Shown one piece after another: positions 7,518-18,817 of a stretch of 64,000 nt of DNA. A program made the translations under genes and the position numbers. This DNA comes from Candidatus Methylomirabilis sp. Lineage in GTDB: Bacteria; Methylomirabilota; Methylomirabilia; Methylomirabilales; Methylomirabilaceae. The stretch is taken from positions 1 through 64,000 of the forward strand of contig NZ_JAQUOY010000010.1 of NCBI RefSeq assembly GCF_028716865.1, read 5' to 3'. The notes under the pieces are model-generated. The model saw only the letters and a program-made list of their open reading frames with translations, was not told where the DNA came from and did not search any database. How positions within the stretch are numbered: the first letter of the stretch is position 1; the number at the start of each line of letters is the position of its first letter.

Positions 7518-7565
7518 ACCAGTGCCGGCGAGCCCTGCCGTGCGGCACCTCGCCGGTGGGGCTGG
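7518..7565 (+). other. Strong stem-loop in the gap before the outer-membrane protein gene
   Basis: CCGGCGAG (7525-7532) pairs with CTCGCCGG (7549-7556); an inner TGCCG-tg-CGGCA and an outer ACCAG/CTGGT can extend it. There is no U-tract, so it is not a simple intrinsic terminator. It could be an attenuator or part of the leader of the next gene. A -35-like TTGACT lies downstream at 7608-7613 with only a weak -10. Confidence 0.4.
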
Positions 7566-7745
7566 TGACCATAAGCTTGGATTGTTCTGCCACCCCCTGA
7601 AAATGACTTGACTCTGTTTTCTCTGGTATGGTATCGGTTGCACGATTTCTGCTAGGTTTCTTTCCAGGTTCGTCTGTGTGCCCCACCCTACGCGACAACA
7701 AGGCAAGGGGGCGATCGCCGTTGTGCTTATCCTGGGAGTTTTTGG

Positions 7746-9029
7746 ATGACCTTGCGCCTCCGAGCCACCACAACCCTTTTGCTGATCCTCTGGATTGGAT
7801 GGTTCGCCCGTCCCGCCGAGGCTACGGATCTCAAGAATACCATCAGGAATCTCTATGGCAGCAAGGGGATCCTCCTCGAACCAATCGGCCTCCCCTTTTT
7901 CACCCAGGAGTCCCGTTTTCAGGCATCATCGCTTCAGGGACTTGACCAGCTCAATACCCAGTTGACCTCCTCAATAGGGCTTCCCTCGTTTAGCTCCTCG
8001 GTGACCGGTTTCACCTTCGACTTGGATCGCGGGATTCCGGTTCGAACCACTGAAAGCCTCGGTCCCTTACTGACGGAGCGCGCCACGACCCTTGGCGCGC
8101 ACAAGCTCGATGTGACCTTCACGTACACTCGGCTGAGCTTCACCAAGCTGCAAGGCAAAGACCTCGATAACTTGGAGCTTGTGTTCCTGCGGGACGATGC
8201 TAACGGAAACGGGATCCGAGATACGAGCGGCCCGTTCAGCTTTGAGAGTGACATCATCCGCGCCAAGCTCAAGGTCGATCTCAATGAAGACATTTTTGCC
8301 TTCATCGCGACGTACGGTTTCACCTCAGCATGGGACGTGGGACTCGTCGTCCCCTTCATCCATGTTCGACTCACTGCCAGGGCTTCTGCTGCCATCTTCG
8401 ATCAGTTTGGCAATCCCGGTGGCACCATAAGCGGCAGCCTCCCGATCCACCGGTTCGGGCCCAACTCCAACTGTAACCCTTCTGTCGTCCCACGCAACTC
8501 TACCGCCACCTGCAGCGCCTCCGGAGGTGGTGATGAGACCGGCCTCGGGGATATCATCCTTCGAACGAAATATAACTTCTTTCGCAACTCCAATAGCTTC
8601 GCCCCTGACCTGGCGTTTCTGGTCGAAGTGAAGCTTCCGACGGGGGATGAGGGACGACTCCTGGGAACCGGCGGGACGAACCTAGCCGGCCTCCTTATAG
8701 CGTCCAAAACCTATGGGCGATGGTTCACCCCTCACGTCAATGTCGGCTACGAGATCGACACCAAGGACCTTGAGCAGAACACCATCAGGTATGCTCTTGG
8801 TTTCGACGCGCGTCTCCTGTCAAAGCTGTCGTTTGATGCGGACGTGATCGGTCGACAGAAGCCTGAAGGAAACGGAACCGGGAACCATACCGTGGACCTA
8901 TCCCTCGGCGTGAAATGGAATCCTCTCAATTCCTGGATACTCCGGGCGAACGTCCAGATTCCACTGGACAAAAATAGCGGCCTCCGGGCCGATTTTATTC
9001 CGACAGTAGGGGTCGAGTATCTTTTCTAA
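7746..9029 (+). CDS. Outer-membrane beta-barrel protein (Phenol_MetA_deg-like transporter)
   Basis: A 427-residue protein with a clear signal peptide (TTLLLILWIGWF...PAEA, cut near residue 26). The mature part is made of alternating polar/hydrophobic strands and ends in a C-terminal Phe (VGVEYLF), the outer-membrane assembly signal. Strand motifs such as LGDIILRTKYNFF, LVEVKLPTGDE and WFTPHVNVGYEID are typical of the MetA-pathway phenol-degradation family of predicted porin-like proteins. GGGAG lies before the ATG. It is followed after 18 bases by a periplasmic binding protein, then by a kinase and two regulators, suggesting it delivers or senses the same ligand. Confidence 0.75.
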   Translation: MTLRLRATTTLLLILWIGWFARPAEATDLKNTIRNLYGSKGILLEPIGLPFFTQESRFQASSLQGLDQLNTQLTSSIGLPSFSSSVTGFTFDLDRGIPVRTTESLGPLLTERATTLGAHKLDVTFTYTRLSFTKLQGKDLDNLELVFLRDDANGNGIRDTSGPFSFESDIIRAKLKVDLNEDIFAFIATYGFTSAWDVGLVVPFIHVRLTARASAAIFDQFGNPGGTISGSLPIHRFGPNSNCNPSVVPRNSTATCSASGGGDETGLGDIILRTKYNFFRNSNSFAPDLAFLVEVKLPTGDEGRLLGTGGTNLAGLLIASKTYGRWFTPHVNVGYEIDTKDLEQNTIRYALGFDARLLSKLSFDADVIGRQKPEGNGTGNHTVDLSLGVKWNPLNSWILRANVQIPLDKNSGLRADFIPTVGVEYLF

Positions 9030-9047: not shown

Positions 9048-9995
9048 ATGTCATTCCTGACAATTCGTACCGCCTCCCTCGTCTGTATGGCCTATATCGT
9101 CGTTGGAGCAATTGTCTTCTCCTCGACGCCGACAGAGGCAGCAAAGATCATCGCGCTCAAGAGCGCCGATGTCGATGTCTACAATGAAGCGCTGGAGGGG
9201 TTCAAGAGCGCTTTGCAGGAATCTACCATCGTCGAGTACGATATGGAGGGAGACCTCCAGAGAGGGAAGAAGTTCCTGGCGCGACTCAAGTCCGGTCCCA
9301 AGCCGGATCTCATCCTTGCGGTAGGGATCTGGGCCTTACAGGTTGTGGTCGAAGAAGTACAAGATATCCCGGTTGTCTTTGCTATGGTGCTGAACCCCAC
9401 CACAGTGATCGGGCAAGAGGCTCGCAATATCACCGGGGCGAGTATGAATGTTCCGATTGAACAACAACTTGCCCTGCTGAAAAAAGTCTCGCCCCAGGTG
9501 AGGAGAATCGGCGTCATTTATGATCCCTCTCAGACCGGCTTTTTGGTGAGACAGGCTGAACGACTCGCCAAGGATCTTGGCCTCAGACTCGTGACAAAGG
9601 CTATCACCTCACCAAAGGACTCGTTTGCTGCCCTCGATGCCATACAGGATGAGATCGACGCCCTCTGGATCTTGCCGGATCTGACCGTTCTGACGTCGGA
9701 ATCGGTCCAGTACATGCTGCTCTTCTCCTTCAGACATAAGATTCCCGTTCTAGGTCTCTCAGAAAATCAGGTTCGAATGGGCGCTCTGTTCGGTCTCTCT
9801 TTTGAAAGCGGGTGGGATATCGGAAGCCAGGCCTCTGAGTTGGCGAACGGGATTCTTTCCGGCAGGAGCGTCGAACAGATCCCGTTTACGACAGCAAGAA
9901 AGGTGCGGTTGGCGGTGAATCTGAAGATCGCCGGCAAGCTCGGTGTGCACATCCCGAAGGAGATCCTTGACCGGGCAGCCGTGGTGATTCGATAG
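9048..9995 (+). CDS. Orphan periplasmic ABC-type substrate-binding protein
   Basis: A 315-residue protein of the ABC_sub_bind (TrpX/DUF534-like) family. A signal peptide (VCMAYIVVGAIVFSSTPTEA) is followed by the two-lobe binding fold: IIALKSADVDVYNEAL, KPDLILAVGIWALQVV, IPVVFAMVLNP, VRRIGVIYDPSQTGFLV and GALFGLSFESGWDIG. Members normally feed ABC transporters for amino acids or similar solutes. Here no permease or ATPase gene is nearby; the next gene, 36 bases on, is a sensor kinase with a periplasmic domain. I infer a ligand-sensing rather than transport role, which remains to be shown. Confidence 0.82.
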   Translation: MSFLTIRTASLVCMAYIVVGAIVFSSTPTEAAKIIALKSADVDVYNEALEGFKSALQESTIVEYDMEGDLQRGKKFLARLKSGPKPDLILAVGIWALQVVVEEVQDIPVVFAMVLNPTTVIGQEARNITGASMNVPIEQQLALLKKVSPQVRRIGVIYDPSQTGFLVRQAERLAKDLGLRLVTKAITSPKDSFAALDAIQDEIDALWILPDLTVLTSESVQYMLLFSFRHKIPVLGLSENQVRMGALFGLSFESGWDIGSQASELANGILSGRSVEQIPFTTARKVRLAVNLKIAGKLGVHIPKEILDRAAVVIR

Positions 9996-10031: not shown

Positions 10032-12224
10032 ATGGTAATCAGACGGATGACCAGATTCAGGACGAAGGTCTTGTGGTCGATCATTCCGATGATCCTGGCG
10101 CTCTGCGTCCTCTTTGGTGGGATGTCGCTCTATCAGCACAACAGATTGCTGCGTCGAGAGTTTGCGAAACAGGGAAAGGCTCTCGCCAGTAATCTGGCCG
10201 CCAGCGGCGAGCTGGGCGTGTTTAGTGAGGACGAGCGGTTTCTGAACGCCTCGTTGCGCGGGATCACCGGTGAAGAAGATGTTGCCTACGTCTTTATTTA
10301 CAACGACACTGGAAAGCGCCTGATCGGCGGAGGCAAGGCCCTAGCCCAATCCGGTCCAGCATCGATCATCGAACCCTTGAGCGATGAGATCCGCACACGG
10401 ATCCTAGCCACCCGCCAACCTGTCAGCAGGACCCTCAAGGACGCCGCGGGCGAGTCGTTCTTGGAGTTCTACGCCCCGATCCTCTCTGCCGAAGTCCGCC
10501 TGATTGAGGAACAATTCTTCGGGATGCCCGGGTCCGATCGAGGTCCCGGTGAGAACCGAACTCGAGTCATCGGGATTGCAAGAGTCGGCCTGTCGATGCG
10601 AAACATTGATGCCCACTCAGCCTACTTGATCAAACTCTGGGCCATTCTGTCTATTATCTTTTTGGCTGCCGGCACCCTTGCCGCATACGCTCTCTCCCGG
10701 AGGATCACACAGCCGATTACCCGATTGACGGAATCTGCCGCGCGGATGGCCGAGGGACAGATCGACCAGGAAATCCCGGTCGATTCTCGGGATGAGATCG
10801 GGACATTGGCAACAACCTACAACGAGATGGCCAAGGCATTGAAACGAACCCTCGATGAGCGGACGAGGGTTGCCACGGAGCTCCGGGACTTGAACCGGAA
10901 CCTGGAAGATCGGATCCGCGAACGGACCTCTCAACTACGCCACCTGCACCAGCTCGGCGTGTCCATGCAGGAACCACTCCCCCTGTCAGAACGGCTGAAC
11001 TTAATTCTGAAAGGGGCGCATGAAGTTATTGGGTTTGATCGAATTATTATCTGGCTACCGGATCGCGAGGATCTTTTTCTTGAGATGGCTGCCGCTGTCG
11101 GTTTTTCATCAGCGTCAGGGACAGTTCAGGTGCCAATCTCCGACGAGGTGCCCACGTTAGCGCGGGCCTATCGAGATCGAGTCGAGATCATCATTGAGGA
11201 GAGACATGGGGTTCCCCCGGAGCTTCGGGTGCAGCCCCCGTACGATAAGGTAACAGCCCTGCGCTCTCGCAACTTCGTGGTCTTGCCGCTGATCTCTCGA
11301 AGACGTTCTGTTGGAGTCCTTGCCGCCGACAACGCGGTTAGCCGAAAGCCGATTGCGCCGCAGTTCGACCTGCTCCGCATCTTCGCCTCTCAGGCGGCAG
11401 TGGCTATAGAGAACGCCCAGCTTTTCCAGGAGGTGGAAGAGACGAACCGTCAACTCGCGCGGGCGAGTCGCCACAAATCAGAGTTTCTGGCCAACATGAG
11501 TCATGAGTTACGGACGCCTCTGAACGCGATCCTGGGATTTACCGAGTTGATCATCGATGAGGTCTACGGCAAGGTTCCAGACGAGTTGCGCGAGTCGATC
11601 GAAGATATCCACACAAACGGCCGGCATTTGCTCAGGCTCATCAACGATGTGTTGGATCTCTCAAAGATCGAAGCCGGACAAATGCAGTTGAATTTGGGTC
11701 AATACTCCATTCAGTCATTTATCGACTCTGTAATCTCAGCAACGCGATCCCTCGCTGCAGAAAAGCAACTGGAGTTGGTCAGCCGAGTTGAGGCGGGTCT
11801 GCCGTCGGCGGTCAGCGATAGCAAGCGCATCACCCAGATCCTGATGAATCTGGTAGGCAATGCCATCAAGTTCACCCCGGCAGGGGGATCGATTATCGTC
11901 ACCGCCCGATGTGTACGTGTTAAGGAGTGTGAGGTACCGGGGGCGAGGCGGGAGGAGGAAGAGGCGAAGCCCTGGAACCCCGGCGATCAGATTGAGATCA
12001 CCGTGGCAGACACGGGAATCGGCATTCCGGCCGAGGAGTTACAGAGTATTTTCAGCGAATTTCGCCAGGTTGATAGCTCCATCACCCGGGAATACGGCGG
12101 AAGCGGGTTGGGACTGAGCATCGCCAAGCGGCTGGTCGAGATGCATGGGGGGTCCATCTGGGCGGAAAGCCAGGTCGGAAAGGGGTCAATCTTCTACTTC
12201 AGGATTCCGCTCCGAATCCAGTGA
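10032..12224 (+). CDS. Membrane sensor histidine kinase with HAMP and GAF domains
   Basis: A 730-residue kinase. Order: transmembrane helix (about 16-33), periplasmic sensor region of about 160 residues, second helix (about 196-220, LWAILSIIFLAAGTLAAYAL), HAMP linker, coiled coil, GAF domain (about 310-470), HisKA with the phospho-acceptor in FLANMSHELRTPLNAILGF, and an HATPase domain with N box NLVGNAIKFTP, G1 DTGIGIP and G2 GGSGLGLSIAKRL. All catalytic boxes are intact and no receiver is fused. GGAAGGATAAGCAG precedes the ATG. It lies between the orphan binding protein and two regulators, so these probably form one signalling chain. Confidence 0.92.
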   Translation: MVIRRMTRFRTKVLWSIIPMILALCVLFGGMSLYQHNRLLRREFAKQGKALASNLAASGELGVFSEDERFLNASLRGITGEEDVAYVFIYNDTGKRLIGGGKALAQSGPASIIEPLSDEIRTRILATRQPVSRTLKDAAGESFLEFYAPILSAEVRLIEEQFFGMPGSDRGPGENRTRVIGIARVGLSMRNIDAHSAYLIKLWAILSIIFLAAGTLAAYALSRRITQPITRLTESAARMAEGQIDQEIPVDSRDEIGTLATTYNEMAKALKRTLDERTRVATELRDLNRNLEDRIRERTSQLRHLHQLGVSMQEPLPLSERLNLILKGAHEVIGFDRIIIWLPDREDLFLEMAAAVGFSSASGTVQVPISDEVPTLARAYRDRVEIIIEERHGVPPELRVQPPYDKVTALRSRNFVVLPLISRRRSVGVLAADNAVSRKPIAPQFDLLRIFASQAAVAIENAQLFQEVEETNRQLARASRHKSEFLANMSHELRTPLNAILGFTELIIDEVYGKVPDELRESIEDIHTNGRHLLRLINDVLDLSKIEAGQMQLNLGQYSIQSFIDSVISATRSLAAEKQLELVSRVEAGLPSAVSDSKRITQILMNLVGNAIKFTPAGGSIIVTARCVRVKECEVPGARREEEEAKPWNPGDQIEITVADTGIGIPAEELQSIFSEFRQVDSSITREYGGSGLGLSIAKRLVEMHGGSIWAESQVGKGSIFYFRIPLRIQ

Positions 12225-12234
12225 GGGATAGACG

Positions 12235-12606
12235 ATGAGCGGAAAACTGATCTTGCATGTCGAGGACAACGAATATAATCGGAAAATCATCAGGGACCTT
12301 CTCTCCAAAAACAACTATGAAATCGTGGAGGCTTACAATGGGGAGGCAGCGCTCGTTGCGCTGGCTCGGCAGCGCCCTGATCTCATCCTGATGGATGTTC
12401 AGTTGCCTAAGCTGTCCGGTCTCGAAGTAACTCGCACGATCAGGGCGGATCCCTTGCTCGCCCAGATTCCGGTCATCGCCATCACCTCGTTTGCCCTGAG
12501 CGGGGATGACCAGTTGGCGCGCGATGCGGGTTGTAACGCTTATATCGCGAAGCCCTTCCGGCCACGGGACCTCTTGGAGATGATTCGACGCTTCATCGGT
12601 CCATAA
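12235..12606 (+). CDS. CheY-like single-domain response regulator
   Basis: A 123-residue stand-alone receiver domain. The acidic pocket is VEDNEYN, the phospho-acceptor Asp54 sits in LILMDVQLPKLSG, the switch Thr/Ser in IAITSFALSG, and the conserved Lys in YIAKPF. It starts 10 bases after the kinase stop. With no output domain it most likely acts as a phosphate relay or by protein contact between the kinase and the following sigma-54 activator. The sequence style (DNExNRKI) is that of DivK-like receivers. Confidence 0.9.
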   Translation: MSGKLILHVEDNEYNRKIIRDLLSKNNYEIVEAYNGEAALVALARQRPDLILMDVQLPKLSGLEVTRTIRADPLLAQIPVIAITSFALSGDDQLARDAGCNAYIAKPFRPRDLLEMIRRFIGP

Positions 12607-12689
12607 GTACCCGCATCGGCAAAAGATTGTTGAAACCGGCAGGAAAAGGTTGCCGGTGAGTGTGGAAGAGGACTTCTGCTGGAGGAGAG

Positions 12690-14072
12690 ATGGAAGGGTA
12701 TCGCGCAAAAGTTCTGATTGTCGACGATGATCCATCGGCCAGGAAAATTCTCCAGAGCCGGTTGCGGGTGATGAACGCGCAGGTTCTTGTCGCATCCAGC
12801 GGCTCTGAGGCCTTAGAGCAGATCCGGCGGGAGATGCCCGTGGTTGTCCTGCTTGATCTGCAGATGCCGAAGATGTCAGGGATCGACGTCCTGAGATCAT
12901 TGAAGCGCGAAGGATTAGACGCGACGGTCATCGTTGTGACTGCGCACGCAAGCATTGAAAACGCTGTGGAGGCCATGAAGGAGGGCGCCTACGACTTTAT
13001 CACCAAGCCTGTCGATTCACAGTACCTGGAAATCGTCCTGCGCAAGGCGTTCGAGCGGGAGTCCCTGCGAGCGCAAAATCGCTTCTTACAGACAGAGATG
13101 GAGGGTCGCCTCGTCCAGGTCGTAGCGGAAAATCCGGCTATGAAGAATCTGCTGCAGCTTGCCCGCCGCGCCGCCGACAGCAACTCAACCATCCTGCTCC
13201 TTGGCGAAAGCGGAACAGGGAAAGAGGTCTTGGCCAGAAGCATTCACCGGTGGAGTCCTCGAGCCAACCATCCGTTCACTGTCGTCAATTGCGCGGCCAT
13301 CCCGGACCAGTTGCTGGAAAGCGAGCTCTTCGGCCACGAAAAAGGGGCCTTCACGGGCGCGCATCAACTCAAGAGAGGGAAGTTCGAAATTGCGGATCGC
13401 GGCACGGTATTTCTCGACGAAATCGGGGAGGTCCCGGCAAGTATCCAAACGAAACTACTCCGTGTCCTGCAGGACCATGAGTTTGAACGGGTTGGGGGAA
13501 CCCGTACGATCAAGGCCGACATCCGCGTCATCGCGGCTACCAACGGCGATCTCGAGCGAGCTGTGCGGGATGGCGGCTTTCGCGAAGATCTTTTCTATCG
13601 ACTGAACGTCGTCAGCATAAAGCTGCCGCCGCTGAGAGAGCGGAAAGAGGATATCCCGGTTTTGATCGATTACTTCCTACGAAAGTACGCGGGCGCGTTG
13701 AAGAAGCCTATGAAGCTCCTCGCCTTCGGTACGCTGGACGACTTGATCGCGTATCACTGGCCAGGAAATGTGCGCGAGCTAGAGAACGTGATCGAACGGG
13801 CGATGGTCTTGAGCACAGGGGACCAGATCGGCTCGGAGGACCTGCCGCCTCAAGTTACCGCAGGCCCGCGCCGCGAAACGTTCAGAGAAAAGGAGTTCCA
13901 TGAGGCTGTCAAGGAGTTCAAGCGGTGGACGATTCAGGATGCCCTCAAGCGTTCGCACGGCAATCAGACGAAGGCGGCAGAGATCCTTGGACTTCAGCGT
14001 ACCTATCTGGCCAAGCTTATCCGGTTACTTGAGATTAAGATTCCGAGTCTCACCGAAAAAGATCACTCTTAA
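12690..14072 (+). CDS. Sigma-54-dependent response regulator (NtrC type)
   Basis: A 460-residue activator: receiver (1-120; phospho-Asp in VVLLDLQMPKMSG, Lys in ITKPV), AAA+ domain (about 140-380; Walker A GESGTGKE, sigma-54 contact loop GAFTGA, Walker B GTVFLDEIGEVP, arginine-finger region FREDLFYRLNVV) and a Fis-type helix-turn-helix (HGNQTKAAEILGLQRTYL). All parts needed to open sigma-54 promoters are present. I chose the ATG at 12690, preceded by GGAGGAG, over an upstream GTG at 12660. It completes the binding-protein/kinase/receiver set. A consensus sigma-54 promoter lies about 190 bases downstream of its stop. Confidence 0.93.
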   Translation: MEGYRAKVLIVDDDPSARKILQSRLRVMNAQVLVASSGSEALEQIRREMPVVVLLDLQMPKMSGIDVLRSLKREGLDATVIVVTAHASIENAVEAMKEGAYDFITKPVDSQYLEIVLRKAFERESLRAQNRFLQTEMEGRLVQVVAENPAMKNLLQLARRAADSNSTILLLGESGTGKEVLARSIHRWSPRANHPFTVVNCAAIPDQLLESELFGHEKGAFTGAHQLKRGKFEIADRGTVFLDEIGEVPASIQTKLLRVLQDHEFERVGGTRTIKADIRVIAATNGDLERAVRDGGFREDLFYRLNVVSIKLPPLRERKEDIPVLIDYFLRKYAGALKKPMKLLAFGTLDDLIAYHWPGNVRELENVIERAMVLSTGDQIGSEDLPPQVTAGPRRETFREKEFHEAVKEFKRWTIQDALKRSHGNQTKAAEILGLQRTYLAKLIRLLEIKIPSLTEKDHS

Positions 14073-14125
14073 TTCAACCAAAAGGTTACATTCTGCGTAC
14101 CTTTTCTGATTCTATATTGTATCTA

Positions 14126-14185
14126 ATTCGGTACTATCGTCTGGTGCATCGCTTGCATCTACCAGATTTCACTCTCTTACCGAAT
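14126..14185. promoter_or_regulatory. Nested inverted repeats, candidate activator site or terminator
   Basis: ATTCGGT (14126-14132) pairs with ACCGAAT (14179-14185), and inside it TCTGGT (14140-14145) pairs with ACCAGA (14161-14166). The block lies 79-138 bases before the sigma-54 promoter at 14264, the usual distance for an enhancer bound by an NtrC-type activator. It could instead fold at the 3' end of the activator message. No U-tract follows. Confidence 0.4.
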
Positions 14186-14263
14186 CCTTCCTGAAGCCAA
14201 TAAATCAATAAGATTGCGCCTTATTCTTTGTTGCATACGAGGTTCAGCCGCCGAGATATGATG

Positions 14264-14279
14264 TGGCACGCTTGTTGCT
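14264..14279 (+). promoter_or_regulatory. Sigma-54 (-24/-12) promoter
   Basis: TGGCACG (14264-14270), four bases, then TTGCT (14275-14279) matches the sigma-54 consensus TGGCACG-N4-TTGCW in every fixed position. It points rightward, away from the sigma-54 activator gene just upstream, into a stretch with no convincing gene. Confidence 0.75.
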
Positions 14280-14280
14280 T

Positions 14281-14623
14281 TCTAAACATAGCAGTGTTGC
14301 AGTTTTTCCTCTGATCGTTGGTAGTGGTCGTTGCGATCGACTGTCTGAAGCGGCAGCAAAGTCGCAGGGTCGCTCAGCCGGCGATCGCTTCCCAAACACG
14401 GACGTCGCGTCCAATGGGTTAAAGCTGGAGAGCTCTCCGCTACCCCCCGGAGAGCTCTCCGCTATCCCATCCTCTCATGCATCCGCCGACTTTCTCCTCA
14501 TAACTGGTCCAACCGCCTGCTGGGTTCTCGCTCTACCGACCTGATAGGGTAAAAACATTATTCAGGGGTAACCTCTCCTTCTTCTTTGACTAACGTAGCC
14601 GGAATTCGTTAAAATAATTTTTG
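14281..14623 (+). other. Gene-free stretch downstream of the sigma-54 promoter
   Basis: About 340 bases that would be transcribed from the sigma-54 promoter. The only frame of any length (about 90 codons from 14263) overlaps the promoter and has low-complexity, Ser/Pro-rich content with no ribosome-binding site, so I do not call it a gene. The stretch contains the duplicated palindrome listed next and could encode a small RNA; no clear terminator is seen. Confidence 0.4.
14427..14464. repeat. Duplicated 16-base unit containing a perfect palindrome
   Basis: GGAGAGCTCTCCGCTA occurs at 14427-14442 and again at 14449-14464. Each copy contains the 12-bp perfect palindrome GGAGAGCTCTCC; centres are 22 bases apart, two helical turns. 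The spacing suits cooperative binding of a dimeric regulator. Alternatively each copy could fold as a small hairpin in an RNA. Confidence 0.55.
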
Positions 14624-14641
14624 TACTAACCGGTCGGTTTA
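14624..14641. promoter_or_regulatory. TetR-type operator
   Basis: TACTAACCGGTCGGTTTA contains the inverted repeat AACCG-GT-CGGTT, the form often bound by TetR/AcrR-family repressors at their own promoters. It ends 12 bases before the ATG of the broken tetR-like gene, so autoregulation was likely in the ancestor. Confidence 0.55.
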
Positions 14642-14653
14642 AATGGAGCAATC

Positions 14654-14975
14654 ATGTCTGGCGCTAAAGACCACATTATTGAGATCGCATCTCGTTTGGT
14701 GCATCTGAGGGGTTTTAATCATACGAGCATTGGGGGGATTCCGAAGGAAAGCAGCGTCGGAAAAGGGAATTTCTAACTATTTTAAAAGTAAAGAAGAGTT
14801 GGGCTATGCGATTATAGAAAACAACTTCAAGCGATTTTCAGAAGAGGTGACGGGAAAAGCCTTCGGAAATGACAGGGATGCTGCGGCGCAACCGGATGAC
14901 CTTCTGGATATACTGCTTGACGCAGTAGTGTCCCAACGTTATTCAACGTTGGGACACTACTGGAAACGTATATAA
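14654..14975 (+). pseudogene. TetR-family repressor, frameshifted and truncated
   Basis: Translation from the ATG at 14654 (GGAG upstream) reads MSGAKDHIIEIASRLVHLRG, a TetR helix-turn-helix start, but stops at 14774-14776. The next frame continues without a gap as SNYFKSKEELGYAIIENNF, which is the classic 'FYxxFxSKEEL' recognition-helix end. A two-base loss (or one-base gain) near 14771 explains the shift. The ligand-binding domain stops after about 107 codons in total, against about 190-200 normally, and the cut coincides with a perfect inverted repeat. The gene is therefore doubly broken unless the frameshift is a sequencing error. Confidence 0.8.
14923..14962. repeat. Perfect 18-bp inverted repeat with a 4-base loop
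   Basis: CAGTAGTGTCCCAACGTT, then ATTC, then its exact reverse complement. It lies at the truncated end of the tetR remnant, 32 bases before the glycosyltransferase start. It looks like two terminal repeats of an insertion element left face to face, or a minimal mobile hairpin. It lacks a U-tract. Confidence 0.75.
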
Positions 14976-14993
14976 GAGGAGGTCTTGGTTTCT

Positions 14994-16346
14994 GTGCCGG
15001 AAGGGAAACACGAAGCGCATGAAGTGTATAAAGCTATTACCTCTGAGCTCAGTCGAAGCACCTCATTCAGCCTCCACTCACCACCTTGTCCTCCTGCGAC
15101 GCATCCCGCGATCGTGAACCCTGACGAACTACGCACTCGTAACGAGGTCGTGCGAGCAGGCCCATTAGTGTCCATCATCACGCCTTCCTATAACCAGGGC
15201 CACTTCATCGAGGAAACAATCTTAAGTATCTTAAATCAGGATTACCCTCACATTGAGTATATCGTCGTCGATGGTGGCTCGACTGACAATACTCTAGAAA
15301 TCTTAAAGAGGTACGAGGGTCGGCTCACCTGGCTCTCTGAGCCGGATCGCGGACAATCTGATGCCATCAATAAGGGCTTTTGGCTGGCCAAGGGCGAACT
15401 CCTGGCCTGGCTCAACTCGGACGATACCTATTTGCCAGGCGCGGTGCGAAAAGCAGTCGCCCACCTTGTGGAGCATCCCGATACCATGATGGTGTACGGA
15501 GAGGGATATCAGATTGACGAAACAAGTCGGGCGAAGGGACGCTTTCCGTGGACAGAACCCTTCGATCTTTGGAGACTGGTCTACCTTTCGGACTATATCC
15601 TGCAGCAGACTACCTTCTTTAGACGAGAAGTGTTCGAGTCCATCGACATGCTGGACGAAACGCTTCACTGGGGGATGGATTGGGACCTCTGGATCCGCAT
15701 CGCGAAAAAGTTCAACGTGGAGTACCTTCCTGAGTATTTTGCAAACTTGCGCCAGTACCCGGAGGCGAAAACCTATTCTGGAGGGGTCAAGCGATTCCGC
15801 GAGCTGGTCACCATAATGCGAAGGCATGGGACAAGGATGTATCCTCCGGCCTACATCATCTATGGGTTAGAAACTGTTTGGAAGAGTCTTCGGACCCTTG
15901 TAAAGCAGCTCCTCCCAGGCGGTGTGGACGGGCTTGGTGTCCTATCGCGGCTTATAAGTCCCCTACTGGGAAGCATCACCGGCGGCATTGTTCTACATGC
16001 GCAAGGCTATTATCCCGACGGCTGGGCTTCGCGGAAGGCGCATTTTCTACTGGTCAACCCTGGCCAGGCCACTTGCCTTCGCCTTGAAGGCGAACTCCCA
16101 ACGCTACCCCGGGACGGCTTCAGGACGGCGATCCATGCCCAAGTCAACGGGCGGCTTCTGGACGGCCCGTTCACCGTCAAGCCCCGCTCGTTTACCTTAG
16201 CATGGCAGATCCCGGACGTGATGCGATCTTCAGCGCTCTTTGAAGTGACCCTGCTCTCGACCTCCTGGTTCGACCCAACCGATTTAGGAATCAAGAATGA
16301 TCGGCGCCGGCTCTGCTATAAAATTCGCAAGCTCGCAGTCGAATAG
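14994..16346 (+). CDS. Family 2 glycosyltransferase
   Basis: A 450-residue enzyme. Residues about 55-270 form a GT-A fold: VSIITPSYNQGHFIEETI, VVDGGSTDNTLEIL (nucleotide binding), WLSEPDRGQSDAINKGF, and LNSDDTYLPGAV with the metal-binding DD. The motif GMDWDLWIRIAKKF is the acceptor-side signature. The 170-residue C-terminal part has no match I recognise but resembles a beta-sandwich. Such enzymes add sugars to surface polysaccharides or lipids. The GTG at 14994 is preferred because AGGAGG lies 11 bases upstream; a TTG at 14985 is too close. Near residue 20 the reading frame runs through a copy of the dispersed repeat (CTGAGCTCAGTCGAAGC), so the N-terminus may be recent. Confidence 0.8.
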   Translation: MPEGKHEAHEVYKAITSELSRSTSFSLHSPPCPPATHPAIVNPDELRTRNEVVRAGPLVSIITPSYNQGHFIEETILSILNQDYPHIEYIVVDGGSTDNTLEILKRYEGRLTWLSEPDRGQSDAINKGFWLAKGELLAWLNSDDTYLPGAVRKAVAHLVEHPDTMMVYGEGYQIDETSRAKGRFPWTEPFDLWRLVYLSDYILQQTTFFRREVFESIDMLDETLHWGMDWDLWIRIAKKFNVEYLPEYFANLRQYPEAKTYSGGVKRFRELVTIMRRHGTRMYPPAYIIYGLETVWKSLRTLVKQLLPGGVDGLGVLSRLISPLLGSITGGIVLHAQGYYPDGWASRKAHFLLVNPGQATCLRLEGELPTLPRDGFRTAIHAQVNGRLLDGPFTVKPRSFTLAWQIPDVMRSSALFEVTLLSTSWFDPTDLGIKNDRRRLCYKIRKLAVE

Positions 16347-16700
16347 ACCCAGAGAGCAACCAGATCCCGCACGTCTGGCGACGAAGGGCGCGGGGGTGGC
16401 GTACGGGGAGTCCGGACGGAGCGTTCCCCGTGAGAACTGAAACGATAGCAGGGAGAGAATGTCGAACCGGTCTCATTGGTTGCGGCCGGTGGGGACGGGT
16501 CCTCTTGCAGAACTTTCGCCGCCTTGCGCGAGACGTTCTCACCAGATGACGAGAGGCTTTTCCGACAACACGACCCTGGCTTGCTCACCAGATATGGTTA
16601 TGTTCGAGACGAGGATGACACATCAGCGCCCACTGCGCGCCGCGAGCTTCCTGCAATTGAGCTGAGAATTGAAATAACCCCGCAGCCAGAGCGACGGCCA
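16347..16700 (+). other. Intergenic stretch with an open frame of uncertain status
   Basis: About 350 bases between the glycosyltransferase stop and the methyltransferase ATG. The methyltransferase frame stays open back to 16476 and yields text such as DDERLFRQHDPGLLTRYGYV, but no standard start with a ribosome-binding site is visible. It may be a genuine N-terminal extension or a remnant of a lost gene. Nothing else was seen. Confidence 0.4.
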
Positions 16701-17897
16701 ATGTCTTTCTCTCCCCGTCCGGTTTTTCAGAAGGTCGAACTCCTCGCGGACCTCCCGGGAAAAGTGTTCAGTCACAAGACCGCCATTTACGAGCAGCATC
16801 TCGCGCCCTATTCGACGATCATGGACGCTCAGATCGGGGAGGGAACGATCCTCGGGAAGAGCTATCTCTCTAGGAGATACGCAGATATTATACGTTGGCC
16901 GATTCGGAGACTCGAATACTCCTTTGTATTGCATCATGCGCTTCCCGTACTGGAAAGAGGGCGGCGCCAGAAGGTCCTAGGTGCGGGCTGCGGAGTTACT
17001 CCCCTCCCCCATTTCTTTGCATCGATGGACGCTGAAGTAGACGCGGTTGACTTTGACGAAGGAGTGATCGAGACGTTGAAAACGGCAAGAGTGAACGAGG
17101 TCTACGGCTCTCGCGTGAACCATCAGTGGATGGACTTACGCCGATTGGCATTTAGCGATTCGACATTTGACCTTGTCACGTGCGCATCGGTGATCGAAAG
17201 TCTTGCCAACGGGGATGAAGCGCTGGTTTTGTCAGAACTCGTCCGCGTCCTGAAGCCCGGTGGGACGGTTATCCTGACCACATATGTTGGCGCCAGCGAT
17301 GATCGTCTCGCGAATCTCAAGGATCGCAAATACGATGAGCCGTTTCATTGGCGTACGCTTGATGGCCTCTTGGCCCCCTATGTAGAGATGCTTGAAGGAG
17401 GCCTGGACAGTCTTAAGATCCTGAGCGGACTGCAAGGTGGCGACATCGAACGATTCTGGACTGCTCACAGGGATGTAGGGTCATCATGGCAAGGGATTCG
17501 GGGCTATGTCGCCATGGGGATCGTGCTTTCAAAAACAGCTCAGGCCGATTGCGCGCAGCGCGCTGCAGATGTGCATTCGCGGAGCGGAAAGTCAGTAGAA
17601 GGAGAGGACCGTCATCTTGAATCCTGGAGGTCGGACGCGGCTGATGCCATGCTAAAGTCCCAAATCCACCGAACCATCGAGCTTAAACGTGCCCTGGAAG
17701 AGAAGGAGGCGGTCATCCAGGAGCAGAAGCGAGCGATCGAAGCGTATAAGGCACACATGGAGAACTGTCAACACCTACAGATTACTGGTCAAGGACACGT
17801 CATCCACAGGTCTGAGCTGTCACGACTTGTGGCGGCCCTCAAACAGCTCTTTGGGCGAAAGTCCGTCCGTGACAAGGGGGAGAAGCGGCAGCCATGA
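16701..17897 (+). CDS. SAM-dependent methyltransferase with C-terminal coiled coil
   Basis: A protein of about 398 residues. Residues about 80-260 form a class I methyltransferase fold: VLGAGCGVTPLPHFFASM (motif I, with Gly where Asp is usual), VDAVDFDEGVIETL, LVTCASVIESLANGDEALVLSELVRVLKPGG. The last 100 residues are charged and helical (MLKSQIHRTIELKRALEEKEAVIQEQKRAIE...), a predicted coiled coil. This architecture is seen in enzymes that modify or cap surface polysaccharides, where the coiled coil sets chain length, but that role is inferred from the neighbouring glycosyltransferase. The start is uncertain: the frame is open upstream and the ATG at 16701 has no good ribosome-binding site. 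Confidence 0.65.
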   Translation: MSFSPRPVFQKVELLADLPGKVFSHKTAIYEQHLAPYSTIMDAQIGEGTILGKSYLSRRYADIIRWPIRRLEYSFVLHHALPVLERGRRQKVLGAGCGVTPLPHFFASMDAEVDAVDFDEGVIETLKTARVNEVYGSRVNHQWMDLRRLAFSDSTFDLVTCASVIESLANGDEALVLSELVRVLKPGGTVILTTYVGASDDRLANLKDRKYDEPFHWRTLDGLLAPYVEMLEGGLDSLKILSGLQGGDIERFWTAHRDVGSSWQGIRGYVAMGIVLSKTAQADCAQRAADVHSRSGKSVEGEDRHLESWRSDAADAMLKSQIHRTIELKRALEEKEAVIQEQKRAIEAYKAHMENCQHLQITGQGHVIHRSELSRLVAALKQLFGRKSVRDKGEKRQP

Positions 17898-18547: not shown

Positions 18548-18817
18548 ATGGCGACAATCATCGAATACACCGATCAGAAAAGGCCGACCAATAGCTATCC
18601 AAAGCGGATTATCTCACCGCTCACGCCTAGCCCATGCTGTTACTCAAAAATGGAACAGATCGGAGTGGAACAGCACGAAGAAGGCTGGAGTTTCATTTAT
18701 AAACGTTGCAAGAAGTGCGGTTTTGCTGTCCGCCACGTAACCGCACGGGACCCACAACTCCTCACGAAGAAAGGTCCTCGCTTCGATCACCAGGAGTTGA
18801 TCGGTTTCCACAACTAG
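18548..18817 (+). CDS. Small hypothetical protein with a CxxC pair
   Basis: An 89-residue basic protein I cannot assign. It has a CCYSK at about residue 30 and KRCKKCGFAVRHVTARD at about 52-68; the cysteines (CC and CxxC) could hold a zinc ion in a ribbon fold, which would suit nucleic-acid binding. GAGGATGAAAGAAC precedes the ATG, giving a good ribosome-binding site, and the frame is compact and complete. It precedes nadA by 87 bases, but a separate promoter lies between, so it is probably not part of the NAD operon. Confidence 0.6.
   Translation: MATIIEYTDQKRPTNSYPKRIISPLTPSPCCYSKMEQIGVEQHEEGWSFIYKRCKKCGFAVRHVTARDPQLLTKKGPRFDHQELIGFHN

Follow-up and report, generated by a model that had tools for sequence, protein, structure and literature searches.

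What does a sigma-54 promoter serve when it lies close behind the gene of a sigma-54 activator and fires into a region with no convincing gene? This question was raised by a locus in the window, as we call the whole 64,000-nucleotide stretch analysed here, which comes from a Methylomirabilis-type (NC10) genome of 2.54 Mb in 53 contigs. Members of Methylomirabilis are nitrite-dependent methane oxidizers, and a literature search returned no publication on small RNAs of this group and no described small RNA for the phylum. A first, sequence-only reading of the locus had offered two answers, a sigma-54-dependent small RNA or the promoter of a gene since lost. Comparison with related genomes strongly supported the former, since the promoter, an upstream element and the structure of an RNA are conserved together in 12 species, with compensatory changes. 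We propose, with a probability of about 0.8 and from comparative sequence analysis, that a sigma-54-dependent structured small RNA, previously uncatalogued and presumably trans-acting, is encoded together with its regulatory region at positions 14097–14470. For Methylomirabilis, this provides a concrete and testable small-RNA gene together with its candidate promoter, activator and structure.

A signalling operon precedes the RNA locus

The operon preceding the RNA locus carries genes for an outer-membrane-type protein (7746–9029), an ABC-type substrate-binding protein (9048–9995, + strand; PF04392), a membrane histidine kinase with HAMP, GAF, HisKA and HATPase_c domains (10032–12224, + strand), a receiver-only response regulator with an ATG start and REC-like sequence (12235–12606, + strand) and a further response regulator (12660–14072, + strand). 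The substrate-binding protein, whose synteny is maintained among relatives, is probably the partner of the sensor. As initially proposed, the gene ending at 14072 encodes a sigma-54-interacting response regulator, with the Pfam domains Response_reg, Sigma54_activat and HTH_8 (Fis-type DNA-binding); its start codon is uncertain, with homology beginning at about residue 6. Among NCBIfam families it resembles AtoC, NtrC and PEP-CTERM regulators, scoring below the cut-off of each. Of the 14 other genus genomes, 11 have an ortholog of the activator (77–89% identity), and the closest orthologs in the genome collection, at 77–85% identity, belong to Candidatus Methylomirabilis/Methylomirabilota assemblies. 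The 12 genomes with the activator are also those with the histidine kinase, both being missing from G012; the receiver-only gene has orthologs in relatives, with none found at loci L008 and L009.

Two side observations concern this operon. Kinase orthologs of five genomes (G001, G005, G006, G007 and G010) lack residues ~303–466, which hold the GAF domain, so that the genus appears to have two sensor types with the same output RNA. Moreover, a sigma-70-like motif (TTGACT ... TATGGTAT) lies 5' of the operon, within 7590–7745, and by eye looks conserved in L004, L008 and L009, which suggests that sigma-54 probably does not drive the operon itself.

The sigma-54 promoter and a single-copy upstream element are conserved

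The exact sigma-54 consensus noticed at 14264 was confirmed: the -24/-12 promoter TGGCACGCTTGTTGCT occupies 14264–14279 on the + strand and is the sole exact match in the window, where mononucleotide shuffles gave an expectation of 0.03. RpoN is encoded in this genome, and only two exact sites were found in its whole 2.54 Mb. The other one (L001, G000:C2:60052) immediately follows another activator gene and lies 5' of flgB-like flagellar basal-body genes. Conservation in related genomes, which had been suggested as a check, was found, the promoter being placed closely 3' of the activator gene in 12/12 activator-bearing genomes of the genus, with a mean pairwise identity of 88%; it is also kept in G012, in addition to these 12 orthologous loci.

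Between the activator gene and the promoter lies a conserved 38-bp element (14097–14134, + strand; GTACC...GGTAC in the window, with GTAYC/GGTAC ends across genomes). Its centre is ~174 bases before the predicted transcription start (171–176 across all 12 genomes), a distance that is usual for sigma-54 enhancers. Mean pairwise identity was 76% for the element and 45% for the 128-base spacer that separates it from the promoter. We searched the 15 genus genomes with a degenerate 38-bp pattern, GTAYCNNNTTNGATYCTNNNNYGTAYNNNNTYNGGTAC, written from the 12 sites and allowing up to two mismatches, and found exactly one copy per activator-bearing genome (12/12), none in the three activator-free genomes and none with the reversed control pattern. 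Presence at the sites from which the pattern was written holds by construction; the informative part is that no genome has a second copy. On sequence grounds, this element is the best candidate for, and probable, binding site of the activator. It overlaps the region in which nested inverted repeats (14126–14185) had been taken for the enhancer. The outer repeat, ATTCGGTA/TACCGAAT, is indeed present in this genome, but it has no counterpart in ten relatives, and the enhancer role thus found no support for the repeats; the conserved block is the 38-bp element instead.

A predicted structured RNA follows the promoter

We placed the predicted start at 14290, 12 bases past the GC of the -12 element (14277–14278). 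The predicted 5' part of the RNA (14290–14365, + strand) differs in length between genomes, being short or missing in G005 and G010, and has a mean pairwise identity of 30%. It is followed, on the same strand, by a small hairpin (14368–14386, with 14368–14373 pairing with 14381–14386; 94% of cells paired, one compensatory pair), by a single-stranded linker with CGUCGCGUCC (14387–14415), whose columns are nearly invariant in the 12-species alignment, and by a large hairpin (14416–14468). The latter has a base (14416–14421/14463–14468) with only 82% of cells paired, a main stem (14427–14439/14448–14460) with 97% of cells paired and compensatory changes in 8 of 14 pairs, and the apical loop CUACCCCC (14440–14447). 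This loop is the same in 11/13 genomes (UUACCCCC in G009 and AUUCCCCC in G002), and the linker sequence is conserved almost as strictly, G012 being the exception. The duplicated 12-bp palindrome GGAGAGCTCTCC noticed at 14427 and 14449 exists, although not as two separate motifs: the copies form the opposite arms of a single 13-bp hairpin, with CTACCCCC as its loop.

The RNA core (~14366–14470) has a mean pairwise identity of 68%, against 30% for the following 150 bases. Together with the values for the spacer, these identities point to selection acting on three parts, the upstream element, the promoter and the RNA core, rather than on the region at large. Both hairpins are borne out by the 12-species alignment and by a model alignment of 13 genomes. 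In the latter, both-sided changes were found in 11 of 26 pairs, a number reached by 0/500 shuffles, and the covariation score of the core was 0.224 compared with 0.149 in shuffled alignments; sliding the partners by 1–3 columns lowered paired cells from 93% to 45–57%. Since a model-fitted alignment leans towards the structure, we note that an independent MAFFT alignment gave 7 both-sided pairs, reached by 2/500 shuffles. Folding energy was far below that of shuffled sequences in seven of seven species, with a z-score of -5.2 in the window and of -3.8 to -6.5 in six relatives. Rfam gave no match at the gathering threshold in the window, nor at E≤5 for 14074–14660.

One RNA copy is found in most genomes of the genus

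A search with the RNA model recovered one full-length copy of the RNA in 13/15 genus genomes and in 0/80 genomes from other families of the phylum, under stricter filters that could miss remote relatives. No further full-length paralogous copies were found; two weak reverse-strand matches correspond to the palindromic hairpin itself. Two genomes, G004 and G011, are without the RNA, the activator and the element, G004 being only 83% complete.

The thirteenth genome, G012, had been left outside model building and was recovered by the model at E 7e-16. It has the RNA and a perfect promoter, while its activator operon is gone except for a remnant of the C-terminal coding part and its upstream element is altered. 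Decay of the element together with loss of the activator fits the element as the activator's binding site. A strict one-to-one dependence between RNA and activator does not predict this case, and the persistence of the RNA there points either to a recent loss of the activator or to the action of another one. G012 offers a natural test of activator dependence. Its RNA (L129, G012:C29:16000-32000; 7541–7669, minus strand) has an extended hairpin and a diverged linker.

Relation to known activator–small RNA systems

In Pseudomonas and Azotobacter, the genes of the kinase CbrA and the sigma-54 activator CbrB are followed on the same strand by that of the small RNA CrcZ, which has an activator-controlled, sigma-54-dependent promoter (PMC6292655). 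The same order of kinase, sigma-54 activator and small RNA on one strand is found here, but our RNA is unrelated to CrcZ in sequence (no Rfam match), and the role of CrcZ as an Hfq-Crc decoy has no counterpart, Hfq being found in none of the 15 genus genomes in a search whose controls were detected. An account in PMC6296734 puts the genes directly controlled by CbrB in P. putida at a minimum of 61; unlike this, each genome here has one candidate binding element.

In Enterobacteriaceae, the QseE/QseF system drives the sigma-54 small RNA GlmY through upstream sites bound by the adjacently encoded activator (PMC6075780). Here too, a small RNA would be made from a sigma-54 promoter beside an activator gene, with a candidate upstream site. 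However, glmY precedes its operon and has an overlapping sigma-70 promoter as well as three TGT-N12-ACA sites, whereas the RNA gene described here lies downstream and has one different 38-bp element. In Vibrionaceae, a qrr gene adjoins luxO in the opposite orientation (PMC10162802); this likewise places a small-RNA gene beside that of a sigma-54 response-regulator activator, with an arrangement opposite to ours and an unrelated sequence. None of the covariance models for CrcZ, GlmY/GlmZ, Qrr and 6C gave an Rfam match to our RNA, with E values up to 5. The action of Qrr RNAs is Hfq-dependent.

What the locus shares with CrcZ, GlmY and Qrr as sigma-54-dependent, activator-adjacent small RNAs is an exact -24/-12 promoter conserved in 13 genomes, an activator of matching domain architecture encoded next to it in 12 genomes, a conserved single-copy candidate binding element upstream, and a product that appears to be structured and non-coding, judging from covariation and the lack of a shared ORF. 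The design in which a sigma-54 activator sits beside its own small RNA, described for the gammaproteobacterial CbrB-CrcZ, QseF-GlmY and LuxO-Qrr, would extend to a phylum that is distant from them and gave no Hfq match in the genus genomes searched.

Alternative readings of the locus

Loss of a formerly sigma-54-controlled gene would account for the lack of a convincing gene downstream in the window. This lack was borne out: no ORF downstream of the promoter is common to the species. The same structured RNA, however, lies 3' of the promoter in 13 genomes, and because this conserved product, rather than a decayed gene, follows the promoter in every species, we consider that a lost gene is scarcely credible. 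A 93-aa ORF (14263–14544) was rejected as a downstream protein gene, as it starts upstream of the predicted transcription start and has no Pfam or NCBIfam match; in the window, just a 34-codon ORF with a TTG start is left after that start.

It is also improbable that the RNA is a coding or dual-function one, giving a small hydrophobic protein of ~50 residues in at least some species. Such a product is hinted at by ORFs of 49 codons in G003 (L094) and 58 codons in G008 (L093), which overlap the 5' part of the RNA and encode a hydrophobic stretch and then a basic tail, and by a similar frame that stops near the same point before the hairpin in several species. Yet most other species lack these ORFs. 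Past the predicted start, no reading frame reaches 20 codons in G005, G010 or G007, and elsewhere the frame is disrupted by 2- and 4-base indels and by in-frame stops. Conservation peaks in the hairpins and the linker, where it tracks base pairing.

If the block were an untranslated leader, terminator or attenuator of tetR instead of a free small RNA, its large, terminator-like hairpin and the presence of tetR on the same strand a few hundred bases downstream in G007, G012, G013 and G014 would be explained. This is very improbable, given that tetR is broken in the window, is not beside the RNA in G005, G006 and G010 and lies ~4 kb off in L009, that no U-tract follows the hairpin, and that a sigma-70-like site with a weak consensus match (14586–14615) separates the hairpin from tetR. 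Variability of the downstream gene across species argues against a leader of tetR. The tetR remnant itself (14655–14972) agreed with its first description as broken, as it has a frameshift and is truncated near residue 84; an intact tetR occupies the same place in G013 (L004), G007 (L006) and G012. The break coincides with a perfect 18-bp inverted repeat with a 4-base loop (14923–14940/14945–14962). Glycosyltransferase and methyltransferase genes (14985–17897) stand between this remnant and a conserved 89-codon ORF (18548–18817), which encodes a small protein 70–90% identical in relatives and always located before nadA. In relatives, tetR is directly followed by this ORF and nadA, which marks 14985–17897 as a lineage-specific insertion.

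A further reading accepts the small RNA and takes it for a protein-binding decoy like CrcZ or CsrB, whose repeated UACCCC-type single strand and C-rich loop would sequester an RNA-binding protein. The CbrB-CrcZ layout speaks for it, CrcZ being a decoy for Hfq-Crc (PMC6292655), as does the almost invariant loop, which is what a protein site would lead one to expect. We regard a decoy as unlikely, since the RNA, present in 13 genomes, has a single loop in place of the repeated motifs typical of sponges, and since no genus genome had a detectable Hfq and only 4/15 had CsrA. On these counts, Hfq dependence explains the genus as a whole poorly, and so does a CsrA sponge, a reading that was rejected.

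Proposed mechanism

For the trans-acting small RNA, we propose the following pathway. The histidine kinase, probably aided by the periplasmic substrate-binding protein, would phosphorylate the sigma-54 activator, which would bind the single 38-bp site (14097–14134) and, by DNA looping, activate the sigma-54 polymerase at 14264–14279. Transcription from ~14290 is predicted to yield an RNA of ~170–190 nt, consisting of the small hairpin, the single-stranded linker with CGUCGCGUCC and the long GC-rich hairpin displaying CUACCCCC in its loop. Its most likely action would be an antisense one, in which the C-rich loop pairs with the G-rich ribosome-binding regions of target mRNAs without the help of Hfq; as Hfq was not found in the genus, any such pairing would be Hfq-independent.

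This last step draws on an analogy with the mycobacterial 6C/B11 small RNA, whose C-rich loops pair with ribosome-binding sites and bring about repression (PMC10470900). The two have in common a stable hairpin with a cytosine run in the loop and organisms without detected Hfq; pairing to G-rich ribosome-binding sites is proposed here by analogy and not from homology: 6C has two C-rich loops compared with one here, no Rfam match to 6C was obtained, and 6C is not known as sigma-54-dependent. Across the genus, sites complementary to the loop were not enriched just before ATG over a reversed-pattern control, which leaves the antisense step without target support, and a scan for the linker complement (TTGGACGCGAC) returned a handful of matches, several of them the RNA gene itself, with no conserved candidate. 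We therefore hold the antisense step as tentative, close to even odds but short of them.

From the sequence comparisons, the signalling pathway probably acts mainly through making one small RNA. The fuller proposal, in which the two-component pathway in its entirety (outer-membrane protein, periplasmic binding protein, kinase, receiver protein and sigma-54 activator) has one Hfq-independent C-rich-loop small RNA as its single direct output, is a possibility to which we give somewhat less than even odds. Were the single-output reading true, signalling would run through one promoter and leave gene control to an RNA, and with one upstream element per genome, whether the pathway works through a single RNA becomes a question that can be asked.
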